Source: Linderina pennispora (lineage: Eukaryota; Kickxellomycota; Kickxellomycetes; Kickxellales; Kickxellaceae). From it: a DNA stretch of 21,280 nucleotides. The stretch covers positions 1-21,280 of the forward strand of contig NW_024468429.1 of assembly GCF_002104995.1 (NCBI RefSeq), written 5' to 3'. The position numbers were made by a program, and so were the translations under genes. Every line of letters begins with the position of its first letter. Position 1 is the stretch's first letter. This document shows positions 424 to 19,775 of the stretch, one piece after another. The notes under the pieces were generated by a model, which was not told the DNA's origin, did not search any database, and saw only the letters and a program-made list of their open reading frames with translations.

Positions 424-1219
424 TACAGGAATCAAAAGCGCGCTTCTACTTTCTTCATTCCACTTGCCGCACAAACGTACATACTATCGTTATTCTCTTT
501 CATTTTTTTTATTTCTCTTTGCGGACTCGTTGCTGGCCATCGGTGAGCTTCCAAAAAGATGCATTGTTTCCAGTAGATGAAAACAGCCAAGGCAGCGGAG
601 CACATGGCAACATGGTCGTGAGGCATCTCACTGGCGTGGGCATGCAGCGAGTACACCATGTCGCAATATGCCTGCACGGCTCCTTATCCACCCTTGACGA
701 CAAGTGCCCCTGCCTGTGACAGATACAGCTCTCCGCACCTGCATCTGCTTACGTCACTGTCCTGCATCAAGGAACCGAGCAGACACAACATGAATCGCCA
801 TATCAGCAGGGAAAGGTGATTATCCCACATCCAGCTGCCATGAAATGGGGCAAGGAGGCGTTGGCGCCGAGTAGCTTCGCCCCAAGTCGAGCGGATGGGC
901 GGAGAGCCGAACCAAACACCCTTTATATTCGACCATTTCGGCAAAGTTTCTACTGAATCAAATATACTTCAACCTATTGCAAGCAATCGCTATAATACGG
1001 CCTCAGCCCAACCACTCCTGCAGACCATTTCCTCTTTGTTCACAAACTAAACCGCCTACATGATCGGCTAGCATCTAACAAAGACCAGTGGCTGTTTGCC
1101 AGGTGTCCTCTACCTGAAAGTGCGCAGCAGCAAGCTTATAGTGTTGCCTGGCCACATCATCAGTGAATGCTTCGATTTCTTTTCACTTTTTCAATCTGTT
1201 TTCCATGCTATTTCCTACT
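424..1219. other. Intergenic stretch without a supportable gene
   Basis: Only short, compositionally poor open frames occur here on either strand. A minus-strand TATAAAG (about 922-928) stands alone, with no convincing coding sequence after it. A pyrimidine-rich run at 490-530 could be the 3' region of the first gene. I see nothing else. Confidence 0.5.
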
Positions 1220-1370
1220 AGAAATACTCTGCTCGCGATGCGAGCTCAGCTGCTAGTCAGCATGGGTTGACACGTCGATAAGAGCATCACGGCGAACCGG
1301 TCATTTGAACGTGTCGGATGGTTGTTGGTGCAATGTCGATCATGGACATCTCCTGTCTTGATGGCCTGCC
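1220..1370 (-). ncRNA. Candidate guide (omega) RNA region just 3' of the Fanzor gene
   Basis: In described Fanzor and TnpB loci the guide RNA overlaps or directly follows the 3' end of the nuclease gene. This stretch lies immediately downstream of the Fanzor stop on the minus strand and is rich in inverted repeats. GACACGT (1269-1275) pairs with ACGTGTC (1309-1315). GCTCGC (1231-1236) pairs with GCGAGC (1240-1245) across a 3-base loop. Position and potential structure are the only evidence. I found no element end to mark where a guide would begin. Confidence 0.2.
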
Positions 1371-1585
1371 TCAGCGCAGGCGCTTCAGCGCTGGCTCGCT
1401 GCTGCACGCCTCTTGCGCGACCTCTTTTGTTGCAGGGGTGGTGCCAGAAGCATCGGCAACAATGGCCGTAAAGCGATGGAACCGTTCAGGAATACCGCCT
1501 GAATCACAGAATGACTGGAAAACGAGTCTGAAGTTTAGAACTGCTGCGAGATCGCGGTTCAAGAGCCGAGATGAATAGGCCCGGC

Positions 1586-1610
1586 CTGTATTGTGCCATG
1601 GCCCGCTTAC
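1586..1610 (-). other. Frame-break site in the Fanzor gene; possible 25-base intron
   Basis: On the minus strand this segment begins GTAAGC and ends ATACAG. Removing exactly these 25 bases joins T at 1611 to GC at 1585-1584. That recreates a Cys codon at the fourth zinc-ribbon position and moves the reading into the frame of NRDLAAVLNF. Fungal introns are usually at least about 40-50 bases, so a 25-base intron would be exceptional. A one-base insertion somewhere in 1553-1611 explains the frame equally well. Confidence 0.35.
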
Positions 1611-2451
1611 ATGACTCGCTTGTACAGCGGAGAAGGCCATGGCACTTCACAATTGGGTTCTTCGATCTCTGGTAGGGCCGCGGGTTGGGAACATGCCGGA
1701 ATGTCTGCAGCGACTTTTCGCAGCAGAACGGGCACATCGACGATGTCCGGAATTCGTCGATCAGATAGACTTCAAAGCCATGGTGCTTGAACTTGTCGCG
1801 CCACCCCTTGCCACGAATCGGCGCATGGTGTCGGGCCATTGGCGCACTCCAATTGCCCATGATTAGCACTGGATCTGGACCGAACTTGCTCCGGAGTTTT
1901 GCGGCAAGCCTGTGGTCTGCACGGGCCTGGTTCATGAATGAATCAAGGTGCAGCTTGCGGTGAAGCGGGTACACCTTGGGACTGGTACTGACACCTGGAT
2001 GGGCCTTCCAGCGCCTTTGGTGCTGCTTGTTTGACTTAGTGGGCTGCTGCTCTGGTAACCTTCGCGCTGTCATCGTGCTGGCATAAAATGGTGCTAGGAT
2101 ACACCGCACAGATGCACGGGCAGCAACGTAGGCATGGAATTTTGCTGGGCTAAGGGTCCGGCAGCAGTGCTTGGAAAGCTCTGCCTCTGCTCTGCGGACA
2201 GCATCTTCTGGGACTTGATCCTTTGTATCCCGACGAATCCTGTCATAGTGGCGCAGCTTGAGCTCCTTATTGCGCTGCTGCCGTGTGTAGCGGTAGAGCA
2301 TTTTTTCACCCTCTTTCCCATTGCTGCTATTTTCGTGCATCATGTATAGCAAATCGCCCCGACCTGGATCGATAAATACACAGCGGCCTTTCAGATTCTG
2401 CAGCTCTGGCTGTGGGATCTGGTGGATATAGTGACAGTCAGCTATAGTACT

Positions 2452-2559
2452 GCCTCCCACAGCATCGCCTCCCACAGCATTGCCTGTAGCATCGCCTCCC
2501 ACAGAATTGCCTCCCGCAGAATTGCCTCCTGCAGCATCGCCTCCCGCAGCATCGCCTCC
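2452..2559 (-). repeat. 15-bp minisatellite coding a GGDAA/GGNSA-type linker in the Fanzor
   Basis: About seven units encode five-residue repeats (GGDAA, GGDAA, GGNSA, GGNSV, GGDAT, then shorter and GGDAV units) at residues 358-393 of the Fanzor frame. All units keep the reading frame. The repeat lies between the basic helix and the RuvC-I aspartate and is probably a flexible, length-variable linker. Confidence 0.85.
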
Positions 2560-3630
2560 TGCAGTTGCTGCAGTGGCCTCTGTTGCATCTGATGGCATCT
2601 TCGCTGCTTCGCGTGCAGCCTTCTTGGCCAATTTTTCACCCCTTTCTGCTGCTTTCCTTGCCTCTGTTGCTGCCCTCTTTGCTGCGTTGATCTTGGTAGC
2701 CTCCTCACGTGTTTTCGAAACAAACACCTGCTTGATTATTTGCTTGTCCAAACGCACATGGCCTGGGATCCATGATGTCTGCAGAGGCAAGCATTGGGGA
2801 GGAGACTTGCCAAGCTGCTCATTCTCGATAAGCTGGCATAGACGAATGTATGCATGCAGATGCTTAAGTGGATTTGCCTTGGCATCATAGTATCGGCTGT
2901 CTTTGGCGAATCTGTACTTGGCATCATAGGCATTAAGGACTGGTGCCAGCTTGCTGTAGATTGCAAGCATCGGTGGGGTGAGCACACTGAGATCAGGGTG
3001 CCTAGAGGCAATTGCCTGGCGGAGCTTCTGTGCAGGCGTATAAATATACACTTGACATGCATTATTGAACTCAGCCTTAGACACATTGCCCATTGTACTG
3101 TGCAGTGTGTTTTTGCGGCTGCGAATATCAATCAATTTGGCCAGAATCCGCTGTAGGCAAGTGCCATAGTGCAACACAATGTTGTTCTTGTATGCTGTCA
3201 TCAGCTCAGTATCCACGTATGTTGCTACTTGATTCATTTCGCGTACGCCATGTAGCTCGATATCGCCATTATGCAATAGATAATCATAAGTATGGTATCT
3301 AACTACATCACCGAAATCTGCGCTCGACAGTTCTGACTTGTCCTTCCGGTTGACGAAATCCTCGGCAGATATGACAGTCTTCGCCTTCAGGTTGCGATAA
3401 ATGAATAAATAAATGGAACGAAAGAATCCCTTTTTCACAAATGTTGCTGGGTCAAAGGCATCATCGTCAGCTAGCTGATAGAGTAGTATCCATCGTGCAA
3501 GCATGTATGTATGCTCTTTGATGATATTGACGCTGTATACAAATCGTTCTAGGCGGGGCAACATAGAATCACGGAAGCCAATACCACCAAGTGATGTCTT
3601 TATGACAGTAGTGCTGCGGGTAATATTCAT

Positions 3631-4263
3631 TTGAGAAATTTGGTAGGCAAAGTAAGAAGAGAAATGATGCTGTTCAGTTTTGCTTTATTGCGTATGCATA
3701 GCATTAAGAACTTTTTATTAATAATGATCTGGCTTGCATGGTTCTTGAGGCTCTTGGCACTGATACAGTCTTTTGAATCAGTCTATACAGACTGGATCCA
3801 TTGTGGCCCAAATACTACTGCTTACGCATGTTCATAAGCCAAATTAATTTATAAAATAAACCCACAAATATTGCATGGCCGCTAGAAGAGCTATATGGCC
3901 ATATTCAATAGATGCTCATAAATAAATATCCTAAGAGTGTTGCGCAGCTGGTGATGACCACCATGATGACGCCATGGAGGTTATCAGGCCGACCGACAAT
4001 GAGAGCAGCTCTTGCGCTGAACCAATGGAGATTTCTAGTGGAGACCTATGACCACTACAATAACAACTTGTCACCCTGGTTTCACCGATGAGGTCAGATG
4101 CCGCACAAGATCAAAAAGGAGTTTATAGAGTAAGTCACTCAAACCCATGTTGAAGCTTAAGAGTTTTTTTTAACCAATTAAATAATTTCTAGCGGACGGT
4201 CGGACACTTTTTGGACTATAAAATCTTACATATAGGTAAAGATAAAGATAAAGATTTCCATGT
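3631..4263. other. AT-rich flank upstream of the Fanzor gene
   Basis: No supportable gene. It would hold the Fanzor promoter and the element's left flank. Visible structures are a near-perfect palindrome, CAGTCT-ATAC-AGACTG at 3779-3794, and three GATAAA units at about 4238-4255. I could not match any sequence here as an inverted repeat to the far side of the Fanzor gene (700-1370). Confidence 0.5.
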
Positions 4264-5272: not shown

Positions 5273-6133
5273 TTACTGGCAGTTGGGGAAAGCCAGCTTT
5301 GATGAGGGCGTGTTGAACAGGCTGATCTCGGCATTACGGCGGCGGACAAGCCCATCAAACACTCTTCCACCAGCCAGGCGCCACTTGGGCAGCTCCTGTG
5401 CAGCCACCGTGCCTGGATTCTCGCCGGCATTCAGCCGCCTGATCAGGGTCGATGACTTCGCGTTGGAGCAGCCGACATTGAACACCCACGATGTCAGTGC
5501 ACCCCACTGGTTGTCGTTGAGCATGATCGAGCTCTTGAGGTACGTGGCAAGGCACGACGAGTAGGCAGGGATGTCGTCGTTGAGCAGGGCGTCGGCGGTG
5601 GACTGGCTCAGCGGGAAGCCGTACTTGACCTCACCGCAGCCCTTGGTCTGGCATCGGTGGCCAAAGCCGACAGTCGGCAGGCCGATGGGGTCAGGCGAGG
5701 GAGCTGCCACGAATTTGTTGGAGCTCTCATACTCTTTGATCAGGCTGACAGCCGCAGAGTTCAGAGTCCTGCAGAACCCGCTGCCGCCAGTGCTGCCGGT
5801 GTTGCTGGTGCTGCCGGTGTTGCCAGTGTTGCCAGTGTTGCCACCAGATGCACCACACTTGTCAGCGACGTAGCTGCTGGTTCCGGTTTTGACATAGTAG
5901 TCGGCGACATAGCACCCGTCCTGGGTTTTGTCCCACAGCGAATCGCCCTTGATTGATTCACCTTCGGTCTGGCAGGAGAGCGTGACGTCGTCACCACTGC
6001 TGTATGAGCGGACAACACCGTAGCTTGTGCCAGGGCCAGAGCGGCAGTTAATGTTGTTTCCCTTGATGGCATACCCGGACGCAAGCTGGGAGAGGGAGAC
6101 GAGGGCAATGGCAGAGATGGAAGAGATCTTCAT
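5273..6133 (-). CDS. Secreted SH3b-GH24 lysozyme (T4-type muramidase)
   Basis: The 286-residue protein starts with a signal peptide (about 1-20, MKISSISAIALVSLSQLASG). A bacterial-type SH3 domain (21-93) includes NCRSGPGTSYGVV. A Gly/Asn/Thr/Ser linker (98-119) leads to a GH24 domain (121-286). The GH24 catalytic triad is readable as Glu136 (KEYES), Asp148 (SPDPIG) and Thr154 (PTVGFGH). NQWGALTSWVFNVGC and the AGGRVFDGLVRRRNAE block are also typical. GH24 enzymes cleave the glycan of bacterial peptidoglycan, and SH3b domains usually bind cell walls, so this is probably an exported antibacterial or nutritional enzyme. Ten cysteines suggest disulphides outside the cell. GH24 is mainly a phage and bacterial family, which points to ancient transfer. 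The gene is intact and has its own TATA box. Confidence 0.93.
   Translation of the reverse strand: MKISSISAIALVSLSQLASGYAIKGNNINCRSGPGTSYGVVRSYSSGDDVTLSCQTEGESIKGDSLWDKTQDGCYVADYYVKTGTSSYVADKCGASGGNTGNTGNTGSTSNTGSTGGSGFCRTLNSAAVSLIKEYESSNKFVAAPSPDPIGLPTVGFGHRCQTKGCGEVKYGFPLSQSTADALLNDDIPAYSSCLATYLKSSIMLNDNQWGALTSWVFNVGCSNAKSSTLIRRLNAGENPGTVAAQELPKWRLAGGRVFDGLVRRRNAEISLFNTPSSKLAFPNCQ
5777..5842 (-). repeat. 9-bp repeats coding the Gly-Asn-Thr linker of the lysozyme
   Basis: In-frame repeats encode GNT, GNT, GST and SNT units at residues 98-119, between the SH3b and GH24 domains. They probably form a flexible extracellular linker that can change length by slippage. Confidence 0.8.
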
Positions 6134-12054: not shown

Positions 12055-14340
12055 TTACTCCTGCGGACTGGTCTTGATCCAGCCACGAACAGCGTTCCAC
12101 AGCTCATCCTTGACTACCTCCTCCTCAATCGTGGCCGGCGTCGGAATCGGGCACACGTCGGGCGAGTTGCCATCCATAGCGAGCTTGCTGATCATCGACC
12201 GGATCATCTTGCGCAGGACCTTGCCACTACGGGTTTTGGGCAAACGCTCAACGAAAATAACGTTGTGCGGGTAGAGCGATGCGAATGGGCCGACGCGTTG
12301 GCGGATCTCCCTGACCAGGTCGTTCTTGATCTCGTCCAGCGTATGGTCTAGGCGGTGGTGCTTGAGCACGGCAATGACTACCGGCACGCTTCCCTTGATC
12401 GAATGCGGGCGCGCAACCACGCATGTCTCGGCGACCTCATTGTGCTCGACAATCACCTCCTCTAGCGAGCTGGTGGAGATGCGGTGGGCAGCCACGTTGA
12501 TGATGTCATCGGCACGCGACAGAATGTGCACGTATCCGTCCTGGTCGATCATGCCGGTATCGCCAGTGTCGTAGTATCCGGGGAATCGCTTGAAGTAGGC
12601 GCTGAAAAAGCGCTCCTCGTCGTTCCATAGCGTGTTCATGATGCCGGGGGGCAGCGGCAGCTTCAGCACGATGTTACCAATCTCTCCGCGCGTAGCCTCC
12701 TCTGGACTGTGGTCGATTTCGGTGTCTTCGTCGAACTCATCCTTGATTCTGAGCACGCGCAGGTCAACACCCTGGACGGGCATGCCTGCGCTACCGTACT
12801 TGATTGGCGGAATCTCACTGCCGTTCTCGGACAGGCCGACCTGAATTCCGACCAGGGGAGAACCCGTCTCTGTCTGCCACCAGTTGTCCGAAGCCACGTT
12901 GTTTACAGGACCCACGATTTCGTGAACCACCTTGCCAGTGTCGTCAACACCAGTGACATGCCTGACCCACCAGCGGTGGATCTCTGGCAGGCACCGTTCG
13001 CCAGCAAGGAACATCGCCTTAACGTGCGACAGGTTATATTTTTTGCGATATTCTGCGTGCGGGTCTTCGCGGCGCAGGATCATCATGGCCGTAGGCGCTG
13101 TGAAGAATGTGTTGACCTTGTGCTGGTCGAGTACGCGGTAGAAAGCGCTGGGATCGGGTGTGCCGACAGGCTTGCCTTCGAATAGAACGGTTGTGCTTCC
13201 GTTGATCAGCGGGCCGTAGCAGATATAGGAGTGGCCCAGGATCCAGCCCAGATCACTGGCAGACCAGTATACCTTGCCAGGTGCGCACGCATACATGCGC
13301 TCCATCGTGTACTTCAGAACAACAGCATGGCTGCCGCTGGGACGCACTACACCCTTGGGCTGGCCGGTGGTCCCGCTGGTGTACAGAATATACAAAGGAT
13401 CGTCCGAGCTCACAGTCTCGAATCCATGGTACAGCTCGTTGTCTTCAATTGCGTCGACCGCCTCTGCCCACGACACCTCACCCTCGTTGAGAGGCACCAC
13501 CAGCTGTGGGCGCTGCAGCACAACAACCTTTGCCGGCCTCGACCTGCAGACCTCCAAAGCGCCATCCAGCAGTGGCTTGTACGGCACAATCTTGTCCTTG
13601 TTCTCGACGCCACAGGAGCTGGCCAGAATGACCTTTGGCTGGCAGTCCTCGATGCGCTTGGCCAGCTCGTTTGACGCAAACCCACCGAACACCACTGAAT
13701 GAATGGCGCCCAGGCGGGCGCATGCCAGCATGGCGACGATTGCCTCAGGCACCGCGCCCATGTAAATCAACACACGATCGCCCTTGCTGACTCCGCTGCG
13801 CCGAAGCATGGTTGCCGCCTGCTTGACGCGCTCCAGCAGCTGCCCGTACGTGTACTTGCGCACCGAGCCGGTGACCGGCGAGTCGTAGATGAGCGCAGTC
13901 TGGTCAGCGCGGCCGGACTGCACGTGGCGGTCCAGCGCATTGTAGCACACGTTGAGTTTGCCATCGGGGAACCACGACACCTTGTGCGGCTTGGCTGGGT
14001 CTGGAGTCACCATCGCCCTTGTCGGCTGCTCAATCCAGTCGATTTCCTTGGCTGCTTCCATCCAGAACTCCTCGGGGTGGGTCAGCGAGTACTGCCGGAT
14101 CTCCTCCTGCTTGTACACGGTCTGCGAGGCTGACCGGCTTGTTGTAAAGTGCCTTGAGTTGAATACAGACGGCTGTATCTTGGCAGTAGCCAGACCACAC
14201 GGCGTTGCAGCACGGGCATTGCGGACGGCTGAGAGCTGACGAGCGCCAGATGGCACTGCAGCAGCGGGGCTCCGAATAGCCGATACGGCTGGGCGTCGGC
14301 TGGATGCTAGCGCAGTCCTCACAAGAGTGTATCGATTCAT
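12055..14340 (-). CDS. ACSS3: Short-chain acyl-CoA synthetase, ACSS3/propionyl-CoA synthetase type, mitochondrial
   Basis: The 761-residue protein joins a short-chain acid (acetate or propionate) to CoA with ATP, through an acyl-adenylate. Motifs in order are the P-loop YTSGTTGQPKG (320-330), VVRPSGSHAV (331-340; the VVR start is typical of ACSS3/PrpE), DLGWILGHSY (363-372), LAGERC (445-450), NWWQTETGSP (486-495), YDTGDTG (590-596), RADDIINVAAHRIST (609-623) and RSGK with the catalytic Lys707. The first 70 residues are Arg/Ser/Ala-rich without acidic residues, a probable mitochondrial presequence. Length is normal for the family plus leader. A TATA box lies about 105 bases upstream. The Gly usually found in the GHRIST hinge motif is Ala618. 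The substrate is inferred from family only; propionate is favoured over acetate. Confidence 0.93.
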   Translation of the reverse strand: MNRYTLVRTALASSRRPAVSAIRSPAAAVPSGARQLSAVRNARAATPCGLATAKIQPSVFNSRHFTTSRSASQTVYKQEEIRQYSLTHPEEFWMEAAKEIDWIEQPTRAMVTPDPAKPHKVSWFPDGKLNVCYNALDRHVQSGRADQTALIYDSPVTGSVRKYTYGQLLERVKQAATMLRRSGVSKGDRVLIYMGAVPEAIVAMLACARLGAIHSVVFGGFASNELAKRIEDCQPKVILASSCGVENKDKIVPYKPLLDGALEVCRSRPAKVVVLQRPQLVVPLNEGEVSWAEAVDAIEDNELYHGFETVSSDDPLYILYTSGTTGQPKGVVRPSGSHAVVLKYTMERMYACAPGKVYWSASDLGWILGHSYICYGPLINGSTTVLFEGKPVGTPDPSAFYRVLDQHKVNTFFTAPTAMMILRREDPHAEYRKKYNLSHVKAMFLAGERCLPEIHRWWVRHVTGVDDTGKVVHEIVGPVNNVASDNWWQTETGSPLVGIQVGLSENGSEIPPIKYGSAGMPVQGVDLRVLRIKDEFDEDTEIDHSPEEATRGEIGNIVLKLPLPPGIMNTLWNDEERFFSAYFKRFPGYYDTGDTGMIDQDGYVHILSRADDIINVAAHRISTSSLEEVIVEHNEVAETCVVARPHSIKGSVPVVIAVLKHHRLDHTLDEIKNDLVREIRQRVGPFASLYPHNVIFVERLPKTRSGKVLRKMIRSMISKLAMDGNSPDVCPIPTPATIEEEVVKDELWNAVRGWIKTSPQE

Positions 14341-16336: not shown

Positions 16337-17269
16337 TTAGAGTTTGGATGCAGGCAGCAGATCAACAATCGGGTCAACTTCGACGCGTGCCTCCTGGGCT
16401 GTGCTGGCAACAAAGGACCCGTCCCTTGAGAACATCTCGCCGACCACTATACCGCGCCCATGACTGAGCTGCGGGCACTCGGTCTTGTACAGCAGAAAGT
16501 CGCCCGGGTCCGCCGGCTTATGGAACCACACATGGTGCCCGATCGAGACCAGTCTGCGCAATGTGTCTGGCGCCGGGGCAACGCGCACGCCAAATGGCCG
16601 TAATGTGACCCGAGTGAAGAGCAGATCCGAATACATGACCAGAATGCACTGCTGCATCTGCTGCGACCGCAACCTGTTGTCCGGGCACCGCAGCCACAGG
16701 TGCTGCTTGGCAGGCGCAGGCACAGCTATGTCCTCGTCGACCTCCTTGACCCAGATCTCCGCCGGAAACCCGCCCGGGTAGCCCTGCGGATCCAGCACAT
16801 AGTGGTTTTCGGATGCAGGGTTGCCACCGGCCACCGGCAGCGTGCCAGGCGCCCCTGCCTCGGGCGGCACAAAGCCAGGCATTTCCTTTTGGTAGGCGTG
16901 CTTGCTGGCAACGTTACTGCCGTGGGTTACGAAATTGCAAATCATATGCATGACAGGCTTGCTGTTCTGGTGGCTGGTGATTACACGCGAGCAGTAGTTT
17001 CGCCCTTGGCCCAGCGTGGCTACTGTGAAATGCACTGGTGCGGAGACGGTTACGCGCCGCAGGAACTGCGTGTGCAGGGAGTGTGCGACCCAGTCGGCGC
17101 CTGTGGTGCGGAATGCGGCCGCCAGGGCCTGGCCCATCAGCTGGCCGCCAAACACAGAGGGCGCGTGCGGCGGATTCCACAGCTGTCTGCTCTTGAACGA
17201 CCCGTCGCCAACTTCCTCCAGCTCCAGCAGTGTGTCGATGTCGAGTGGGGGTTCCATGTGTGGTTGCAT
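16337..17269 (-). CDS. TES1: Peroxisomal acyl-CoA thioesterase (TesB/ACOT8 type)
   Basis: From Met at 17269 the protein has 310 residues. It hydrolyses acyl-CoA to free acid and CoA, with two fused hotdog domains. Motifs of the family are NPPHAPSVFGGQLMGQAL near the start, HSLHTQFLR, HLWLRCP, ILVMYSDLLF (Asp215, expected catalytic), IGHHVWFHKP and GIVVGEMFSRDGSFVAS ending AQEARV (Gln292). The C-terminus is SKL, the classical peroxisomal targeting signal, which fits a role alongside beta-oxidation. An in-frame ATG at 17350 would add 27 residues, but it overlaps the TATA box (TATAAATG). I therefore start at 17269, 81 bases downstream of that box. It lies downstream of VPS9 on the same strand, with a separate promoter. 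Confidence 0.93.
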   Translation of the reverse strand: MQPHMEPPLDIDTLLELEEVGDGSFKSRQLWNPPHAPSVFGGQLMGQALAAAFRTTGADWVAHSLHTQFLRRVTVSAPVHFTVATLGQGRNYCSRVITSHQNSKPVMHMICNFVTHGSNVASKHAYQKEMPGFVPPEAGAPGTLPVAGGNPASENHYVLDPQGYPGGFPAEIWVKEVDEDIAVPAPAKQHLWLRCPDNRLRSQQMQQCILVMYSDLLFTRVTLRPFGVRVAPAPDTLRRLVSIGHHVWFHKPADPGDFLLYKTECPQLSHGRGIVVGEMFSRDGSFVASTAQEARVEVDPIVDLLPASKL

Positions 17270-17349
17270 GGCGAAAAAATGTGCTTGCAAAGGAATGTCT
17301 ATGGTGTGTCGGAGTTTTGCCCATTCGCGACCAGGCAGGGGGGCTATCA

Positions 17350-17355
17350 TTTATA
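17350..17355 (-). promoter_or_regulatory. TATA box of the thioesterase gene
   Basis: TATAAA on the minus strand, 81 bases before ATG 17269. It overlaps an in-frame ATG (17348-17350), so that ATG is unlikely to be in the mRNA. Confidence 0.6.
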
Positions 17356-17734: not shown

Positions 17735-19775
17735 CTATTGGGGTGCTGACGACTCGTCGCGCATCTGCTGCTCAAACTCCTGCTGTAGCCTGCGTGCCAG
17801 CTCTTCGTCGCCAGAGGTATCAGGAATGGTGGTGTCAGGAACCGATGTCTGGCCCAGATCTGGTGGCGCTGTAATCTCATCGTCATCCTCTTCCTCCTTG
17901 AGTAGATCCTCCTCAACCTCATCTTCCTCCTCCTCATCCGACGACCCATCGGCCCACCGGTCCTTCCACCGCTCGACCTCATCAACTGCGTCGTCTCCGT
18001 CCTCCTGCGGCGCTGCTGCTGTCGGTGGTGGCACGACATGTGTCCGTTGCGACATGCTGTGCACAGGGCTCTCCAGCTCATCCAACACCTCTTCATTGGC
18101 GACAACATCGCGGGCCTCGTTGCCCATCGACATATCCAGCAGCTGCTCAATGGTCTTTGGTACAAATCCCTGGTTGCTCTCAAACACAATCTCAACGACC
18201 TCCGAGTCAATATTCGGGAACATGTCGCGCACCAGCGCCAGCGTCGCGGTCCATTCAGACGTGCCCATGATCAGCTCCTGCACATTGGCCGTGTCCTGCT
18301 GGCTATGCGAGTACTCGCGCTGGTGCCTCGGCTGACGTGAGGACTCGCCCGGGTACTGGGTGCTTGCGCTGCTATCGCGGCGGCTGGGCGATGTGGCGCC
18401 GGTCTCCGAGGCATTGGGCGTCGACAGCTCGGAGATGAGGCGGCCGACAAAGTTGTTCGTTTTCTCAAGGGTGGTCTTGGCAATGCCGCTGCCCTTGTCG
18501 ATCAACCACTGGGCGCGCTCGGCGCTGAGATCCGGCACGGGCCTGCGCTGGGCCTCCTGGCGCTTCTGCTGGGCGGTGCGCTCCTTGCCGCGCTTCTCGG
18601 TCTCGATCTCCCAGATGGTCATCTCGATGTTCTTGTCGAACTCGTCCTGTGTGATGGACAGGCAGGAGGCATCCATGCTTTCAATGAAGGCCACGGCGCC
18701 CTGCAGGTTTGTCACATAGTAGCCGGCCTCGGACTGCATTTTCTCGGCCGACCGGAACCGCATGATGTACTGGATGTTGGACACCAGCTTGGGCGGCGCT
18801 GCTGTAATCACGACGTAGATGAGCAGCGGCAGGAATTTGTCGGCGCCCACGTCGTTGCCCTTCATGTGCTTCAGCAGACCGTAGATCACCGTGCAGCAGT
18901 TTAGGACGCAGATGACCTTGTCGCGCGGCGACTTGAAGTTGTTCATCTTCAGCAGCTCGGTCTTTGCGAACTGCAGGAAGGCCGTGTTCTGCGGGCTCTT
19001 TGGTATGTCCAGGTGCTCCTCCTTGATCCACCGGAACAGGCTCACCTTCTCCCTCAGCACCCGGTCCTTGTCCGCGTCGTCCGAGGCCGTCGGCGAAAAG
19101 CACACCGGGTACAGCCGATTCATCACCAGCTTCTCCATGCCCTCCCTTGCATTCTCAAACTCGCGCTCGCCCGCATACATCCACACGCTGCACTCGCGCA
19201 TCTTGCCCGAGATGAAGTCCAGAAAGTCGTGGATAAACCTGACCTGCTCGCCAAGCGTCAGCGGCCGCCGCGCAAACTCTGTCAAAAAGTTCTTGACTGT
19301 GCGTGCCACCGGCTTGGCCTCGGGGTTGCGCAGCTGCTGCAAGAACGTGTTGTAGTTGAACCCGTCGGTCTCCGGTTGAAACTGCGCACGCAGCTCTGCC
19401 GTCTGCTCCGACGCGGCTGCCTCGGCCGCCTGCGTTGACTGCGAGGCGCTTATCTTCAGCGGGTCGAACTGGTTGATGATGTCTTGGATTGCATCGTGCA
19501 CTTTGGAGGTTGAGGAGACCCGCTGTACTACTGGCGGCGGAGGCAGCGCCTCTGCCAAGGTCTCGGCTGGTGTCGAATTCTCTGGCTCATTTGCAGATGG
19601 CGAAGCGTCGGGCACGGCAATTGGCTCTGTGGGCTGGTCGCCGGCTGGCTGTGCGGTCTCCTGGTTGTCATTTTAGCTCGGCGGTCTGACCGGTGTCGGC
19701 TTTCGGAGTCTCGACGGTGTTGGGCTTCGCCTCTGCCGTTGGCTCTTCGCCTGCAGCTGTATCAGGCTTAGTCAT
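17735..19775 (-). CDS. VPS9: VPS9-domain Rab5 guanine-nucleotide exchange factor with CUE domain
   Basis: Vps9/Rabex-5 proteins load GTP onto Rab5-family GTPases on endosomes. In numbering from 19615, a helical bundle occupies about 85-170 and the VPS9 core about 185-320. ADKFLPLLIYVVITAAPP (258-275) carries the conserved Asp259, Pro263 and Tyr267. A CUE ubiquitin-binding domain follows (about 455-495, with DMFP 464-467 and LL 492-493), then an acidic tail (EEEEDEVEEDLLKEEEDDDE, 561-580) and a final helix DEELARRLQQEF (603-614). No ATG is available at the 5' end of this frame. ATG 19773-19775 opens MTKPDTAAGEEPTAEAKPN in the other frame and reaches TGA at 19666-19668. Dropping one base in the A4 run (plus 19671-19674) joins the frames, giving about 679 residues. 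A 55-base intron with a poor GTCGAG donor is the alternative. Confidence 0.9.

Follow-up and report, generated by a model that had tools for sequence, protein, structure and literature searches.

A dead copy of a high-copy Helitron-type element carrying Fanzor1 in Linderina pennispora, with intact siblings as proposed RNA-guided helpers

In the TnpA-TnpB pair of IS200/IS605, an HUH transposase is combined with an RNA-guided nuclease, for which the insertion site itself serves as TAM. Canonical Helitrons insert between A and T and do not duplicate the target. Their definition comprises TC...CTRR termini with a hairpin before the 3' CTRR (PMC3627910), and in the same paper Bao and Jurka describe Fanzor1 in Helitron2 elements of Chlamydomonas. 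A gene-drive role for TnpA-TnpB is presented in PMC11870625. Saito et al. draw the parallel between Fanzors and IS200/IS605 in general terms, and their discussion treats the role of Fanzors for the carrier transposons as still open (PMC10432273). The TAM has been given as ATN for PpFz1 (PMC11423790) and as CATA for SpuFz1, whose element is preceded by a conserved CA (PMC10432273). No paper treating Fanzor and Linderina together was found in the literature searched, and a statement that Helitron target and TAM are equal was not found in what was searched on Fanzors and Helitrons.

The DNA analysed here, referred to as the window, is a stretch of 21,280 nucleotides from Linderina pennispora (assembly GCF_002104995.1, contig NW_024468429.1, positions 1-21,280 of the forward strand). 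It is contig C92 of the genome searched for siblings (26.17 Mb, 222 contigs). The window contains ordinary fungal genes at 12055-14340, 16337-17350 and 17735-19615 (by Pfam acetyl-CoA synthetase-like, acyl-CoA thioesterase and VPS9/CUE protein, respectively), and a gene with a phage-type lysozyme domain, in a fungal genome, at 5273-6133 of the minus strand (Pfam Phage_lysozyme, E 3.6e-33). A sequence-only reading had assigned a 708-codon frame to a Fanzor nuclease, an assignment that was to be dropped if no similarity to Fanzor proteins appeared. The assignment was borne out. The frame matched PpFz1, the Parasitella Fanzor1 of known structure, with E 3.4e-74, SpuFz1 of Spizellomyces with E 4.2e-28 and GtFz1 of Guillardia with E 1.8e-7; a Pfam search with the window Fanzor protein assigned no family. 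RuvC-I Asp421, GNWS, DEFRTS and the C4 zinc ribbon do lie in this one frame, and NRDLAAVLNF in another, as first proposed (positions in Table 1); the cysteine pairs of the window protein are at residues 633-636 and within 663-674. The gene is almost certainly a Fanzor1 pseudogene.

Table 1. Features of the Fanzor-bearing element in the window
Feature	Positions	Strand	Basis or remark
Whole Fanzor-bearing element, Helitron-type ends, 3,037 bp	1218..4254	-	21 aligned copies with unrelated flanks
5' terminal region common to the genome's Helitrons, starts (TCTTTA)n	4173..4254	-	Terminal-sequence matches
Fanzor1 frame, 708 codons, defective copy	1504..3630	-	Open frame, protein comparison and motif check
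Gly/Ala-rich tandem-repeat linker; conserved WED/RuvC-I segment missing in window copy	2442..2570	-	Copy alignments
RuvC-I Asp421 codon	2368..2370	-	Aligned with PpFz1 CVLMDPGRRDLLY
GNWS segment, residues 592-595	1846..1857	-	Identical in PpFz1
DEFRTS, residues 625-630	1741..1758	-	Identical in PpFz1
C4 zinc ribbon (CPFC ... CHGLLRC..SESC)	1609..1734	-	Motif check and PpFz1 comparison
Interval of reading-frame loss relative to siblings	1560..1595	-	21-copy alignment and frame check
RuvC-III segment NRDLAAVLNF, outside the 708-codon frame	1530..1559	-	Open sibling's NRD segment aligns with PpFz1 NRDQAAVLNF
Conserved 3' noncoding end, candidate omega-RNA scaffold	1218..1329	-	Low pairwise divergence
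3' terminal hairpin GCTCGC-ATC-GCGAGC, nine bases before CTAG	1231..1245	-	Helitron counterpart GCTTGC-ATC-GCAAGC
Target TA, next to the 3' terminus of all copies examined	1216..1217		Predicted guide begins just beyond

The family was then enumerated within the same genome. The census gave 122 protein matches (best 63 of 699 candidates scored), which were grouped by hand into at least ∼62 protein-level loci; this number counts the window and includes some allelic loci. With the RuvC part as protein query, 119 relatives were found, mostly in Coemansia and many in Mucorales. An earlier query that included the linker gave one relative among the best 7,992 candidates (those with most words in common), probably because the linker had filled the candidate list. 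Four Coemansia gene models (P0031, P0086, P0099 and P0115) have Fanzor-like sequence fused to unrelated domains, and are probably insertions into genes or model errors.

Twenty sibling loci were fetched, of which L020 ends at a contig edge, leaving 19 comparable at the site of frame loss. Of the 20, nine have an open frame of 857-889 codons; copies lacking an intact gene are broken or deleted in various ways. An intact copy had been named beforehand as a candidate active nuclease, and seven of the 20 are open with the N-terminus and all six tested motifs in one frame. An open sibling matched PpFz1 with E 1.2e-82, and its RuvC-I, GNWS, DEFRTS, C4 ribbon and NRD all line up with PpFz1, NRD falling on NRD. 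Over 616 codons of 16 copies, the broken ones and the window included, pN/pS was 0.275. As judged from this ratio, the Fanzor protein has been under purifying selection across copies, and the family has spread with a working protein.

An internal deletion between two GCAGACA repeats is common to L024, L027, L081 and about a dozen loci, the junction having been read in three copies and the rest judged from the pattern of protein matches. It removes most of RuvC and keeps the 3' end. The window locus has such a GCAGACA-bounded deletion in one haplotype, absent from the other: on contig C146 the counterpart of this insertion has lost a large internal part, and beside it lies a Ty3/gypsy-like element (named from its frames, by eye). 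Splicing was considered for the recurrent deletion of the other copies and was rejected, its bounds being the GCAGACA repeat and not GT...AG (by eye).

The window copy departs from its siblings in two places. In the alignment its length differs by a net one base from that of the 20 siblings at ∼1560-1595. CHGLLRC and NRD share a frame in 19/19 comparable siblings and stand in different frames in the window, a frame loss seen in 0/19 of them. The RuvC residues and C4 ribbon are therefore not all in one frame in the window copy, NRD being the one out of frame. The paralogue search and alignment that had been proposed as a check was made in the same genome, and no paralogue ending in the first frame without NRD was found among the 20. 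The other difference lies upstream of RuvC-I. The distance from KMPSD to RuvC-I is 231 bp in the window versus 408-579 bp in the 16 measurable siblings, so that the window linker is 177-348 bp shorter. The missing segment encodes WGRVADLTSKPFKAHG..TTDGVTICILL, which aligns with the Parasitella and Spizellomyces Fanzor1 proteins immediately before RuvC-I, and its WG motif is present in 17/20 siblings and absent from the window. The Gly/Ala repeat linker, strongly variable in length among copies, adjoins this pre-RuvC-I segment conserved with PpFz1.

Having lost both the frame and the conserved pre-RuvC-I segment, the window copy is dead twice over; on sibling comparison it is a dead paralogue with two separate lesions and no spliced gene. 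The sequence-only reading had described the gene as otherwise intact, which is wrong, since the conserved WED/RuvC-I segment is also gone, and had offered inactivation, mis-sequencing or splicing as explanations of the shifted frame. Inactivation stands, splicing does not, and mis-sequencing is conceivable only for the frame loss. Length changes of one base are typical sequencing errors, and the frame loss might on this account be an error of assembly or sequencing in an otherwise working gene. However, the window also lacks the segment that 17/20 siblings and PpFz1 possess, so that the copy would be defective even then, and 11/20 fetched siblings are likewise not open for ≥857 codons; we regard this explanation as very unlikely. 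That a spliced or programmed-frameshift gene yields a full Fanzor from the two frames is hardly credible. The frame does change just 5' of the last catalytic motif, but the siblings stay open across this point with neither an intron nor a shift, and the change is shared by none of the 19.

The 5' terminus of the element is at 4254 and the 3' terminus, CTAG, at 1218-1221. Its 5'-end copies were taken from the best 40 of 199 candidates scored and its 3'-end copies from the best 40 of 251. The survey of 5' ends covered 38 sources, of which three had no match, eight adjoin a Helitron and 27 others were counted by eye. A/TC (the slash marking the insertion point) was found at 22/23 Fanzor-type 5' ends not beside a Helitron, the exception being L015, and at 4/4 Helitron 5' ends. 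CTAG was terminal at 45/48 3' ends (exceptions L025, CTGG; L050, CCAG; L024, ATAG). Fifty-three of 54 places could be parsed for a 3' hairpin 8-9 bases before a CTAG-type tetranucleotide, a shape that the search pattern itself required; 49 of these hairpins had six pairs and the other 4 had five, and one of the 53 had the Helitron form. TA stood 3' of the terminus in 20/20 copies picked by protein similarity and in 28/28 further copies, for which the query itself ends in TA; some of these copies are allelic pairs.

The Fanzor element thus has the 5' TC, hairpin and 3' CTRR of a canonical Helitron. Between its ends the longest exact inverted match is 5 bp, against the 8-15 bp asymmetric inverted repeats of Helitron2, and membership in Helitron2 was rejected on this ground. 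A retroposon with a repeat tail, suggested by the (TCTTTA)n end, was dropped once the Helitron ends were found to be common to both. The genome's own Helitrons were recognised from PF14214 (Rep domain), which gave 13 matches, E being 5.8e-24 or lower in seven. Pfam recognises only this N-terminal domain in them, and a helicase part is suggested by the GPGGSGKT motif in their frames. The Fanzor-family 5' end matches four of these Helitrons over 66-68 bp at 98.5-100%, and the 5' ends of single Fanzor copies match Helitrons over 71-121 bp at 85-100%. At the 3' end, the hairpin in eight Helitron copies differs from that of the Fanzor element by a paired change (Table 1). No transposase or Helitron genes were seen inside the Fanzor elements examined. 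The TC...CTAG ends, the matching 5' end and the hairpin with its paired change thus point to a canonical Helitron using the transposase of its relatives. The carrier is very probably a Helitron, and most likely it is mobilised in trans by the genome's own Helitrons.

All eight Helitron 3' ends found (L016, L018, L022, L029 and L041-L044) abut another 5' terminus, which is Fanzor-type in seven and belongs to another element with the same end in one; the junction points differ. The (TCTTTA)n end of relatives is apparently a place where Helitrons insert. A composite Helitron-Fanzor mobile unit was considered because of these junctions and was rejected for the three copies in which both parts were read. 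In these, the Fanzor parts are 2.9-5.1% apart and the Helitron parts 1.2-2.0%, the median Fanzor divergence over all pairs being 5.0%. In addition, C157 and C5 hold the same Fanzor copy with and without a Helitron (flanks at 95% across 1.8 kb; the Fanzor sequences differ by 0.8% in the part compared).

Insertion sites read YA/TA, and the site without insert reads YATA. The base at -2 is a pyrimidine in 19/21 Fanzor-type ends (P 2.1e-4 versus flank background) and in 22/24 when three Helitron ends are added (P 3.9e-5 versus flank background); L015, being without A/TC, and L037 and L073, being allelic to other rows, were left out of these counts. Given this preference before the insertion A, the unoccupied site is usually YATA; the window's own reads AATA. 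In the occupied site, AGTA precedes the guide-matching sequence.

Empty sites were sought by comparing the joined flanks of 18 copies, in sets of 7, 6 and 5, with the genome (best 40 of 56 and best 40 of 48 candidates for the first two sets). Among the matches listed, a Fanzor-free counterpart was present for 7/18 copies, a counterpart with a Fanzor-type element for 8/18 (L009, L014, L015, L017, L023, L026 and the C1 and C157 copies) and no usable counterpart for 3/18 (L011, L024 and the C179 copy). The L012 empty site is clean, with 240 bp unbroken at A/TA and no target duplication; a further ∼540-bp difference in this alignment lies 208-750 bp upstream. At L019 the junction has a T to A change and no duplication, the 5' flank being shared over only 9-10 bp and the upstream flank unshared. 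The L013 counterpart lacks 39 bp between GTCAC repeats, and extra sequence is present in those of L025 (8 bp), L028 (11 bp), the C35 copy (102 bp) and L010 (∼1,173 bp). The length difference is exactly at the insertion point in 5/7 Fanzor-free counterparts (L085, L087, L088, L090 and L094), and over ∼11.7 kb of aligned flank at the first five loci, all three in-alignment length differences of ≥5 bp sit at the junction. The 102-bp and ∼1,173-bp fillers are single-copy, part of the longer one being 67-68% similar to two places, which fits a loss of host DNA at insertion, the simplest reading of these differences. Fanzor-cut scars at the empty loci were also considered. For MmeFz2, length changes have been reported 17-18 bases inside the target; the differences here are at the junction instead and so are no evidence of RNA-guided breaks, and this candidate was rejected.

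Pairwise divergence is 2.8% in the 112 bases of the 3' noncoding end, compared with 5.8% for third codon positions and 6.0% for the 5' UTR. It falls to 1.6% over 1230-1310 (81 bases), an interval picked after viewing the conservation profile, and the last 25 bases of the 3' end are rather variable. Folding of the 3'-end RNA was no better than that of shuffles (z -0.40, -0.85 and -1.31), which leaves this end only a candidate guide RNA. Its conservation could serve only the Helitron terminus. The YATA insertion site fits the ATN TAM of PpFz1, the nearest characterised Fanzor. Whether the insertion site is the TAM is, from the sequences compared, an evenly balanced question, and the pyrimidine preference and TA may reflect only the target taste of the transposase.

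Overall, we consider that the window probably holds a dead copy of a high-copy Helitron-type element with Fanzor1 whose intact siblings act as an RNA-guided helper. The identity of the gene and its carrier are well supported, and cutting is what we infer. In the proposed mechanism, the Helitron-ended element would be moved in trans by same-genome Helitrons with a matching 5' end. The Fanzor of intact siblings would bind RNA from the conserved 3' end, read on into the flank as guide. An unoccupied site would present YATA followed by the guide-matching sequence, and an occupied site would be spared since AGTA, not YATA, stands before that sequence. The Fanzor would then cut the unoccupied allele or sister site, and the element would be copied in or kept, much as TnpB works for IS200/IS605. 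That empty sites are cut in the cell under RNA guidance is put forward tentatively. Similarly, the Helitron insertion site and Fanzor TAM might be the same signal, YA/TA, so that every copy would act as an RNA-guided drive, addressed by itself, on the unoccupied allele, although we hold this with considerable doubt. If true, each insertion would record the adjoining DNA as guide, and the element would provide eukaryotes with an equivalent of IS200/IS605 TnpA-TnpB based on a rolling-circle transposase.

The Fanzor might instead be a mere Helitron passenger, its nuclease irrelevant to persistence, its 3' end kept for transposase recognition and the TAM resemblance coincidental. The folding result and the weakness of ATN as a motif agree with this, and Helitrons would be expected to conserve their 3' ends anyway. 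However, the pN/pS across copies indicates selection on the protein, and the constraint extends 80-110 bases inward, past the hairpin. We regard the passenger explanation as a serious possibility, if somewhat improbable. The carrier could also be another transposon, IS607-like for example or of unknown type, whose Helitron-like 5' end was acquired through recombination or a nested insertion. A transposase gene was not seen within the element, Helitrons often adjoin Fanzor copies, which would allow an exchange of ends, and target deletions, as at some sites here, seem unusual for Helitrons. Against this, both ends are Helitron-like, the 3' hairpin differs from the Helitrons' own by a paired change, and the clean empty site has an A/T target with no duplication. 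Such an origin is thus unlikely, and a Helitron remains the preferred carrier.

In one heterozygous-looking genome, the family supplies a large number of similar copies with defined ends; their proteins are open in some and broken in others, and sites are available both with and without the element. Whether the unoccupied site is cut can thus be reduced to a simple in vitro assay with natural guides, for which the TAM is predictable beforehand from the insertion sites.

Fanzor in Helitrons is known from Chlamydomonas, and the Linderina element, differing in ends and target from what is described there, is a new variant. CRe-1, -2 and -3 of Chlamydomonas reinhardtii (PMC3627910) are likewise non-autonomous Fanzor1 Helitrons with ends common to the host's autonomous Helitrons and with common internal deletions. 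However, they are Helitron2 elements that have inverted repeats and several exons, insert after TTTT and frequently duplicate the target, whereas the Linderina element has TC...CTAG ends, an A/T target, a single-exon gene and no ATIR found (longest match 5 bp). PpFz1 (PDB 9cf0-9cf3; PMC11423790) belongs to the same protein family and its ATN TAM fits YA/TA, but the Linderina family differs from it in the variable-length Gly/Ala repeat linker before RuvC-I; neither helitron nor transposase appears as a word in the main text of that paper. SpuFz1, in Spu-1 of Spizellomyces punctatus, is also a Fanzor1, with a CATA TAM, an upstream CA like YA/TA and a 3' guide RNA, but Spu-1 has terminal inverted repeats and is reported with no associated transposase found (PMC10432273). 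Unlike IS200/IS605, the Linderina element is eukaryotic, relies on a Helitron transposase probably supplied in trans, and carries Fanzor1 instead of TnpB.
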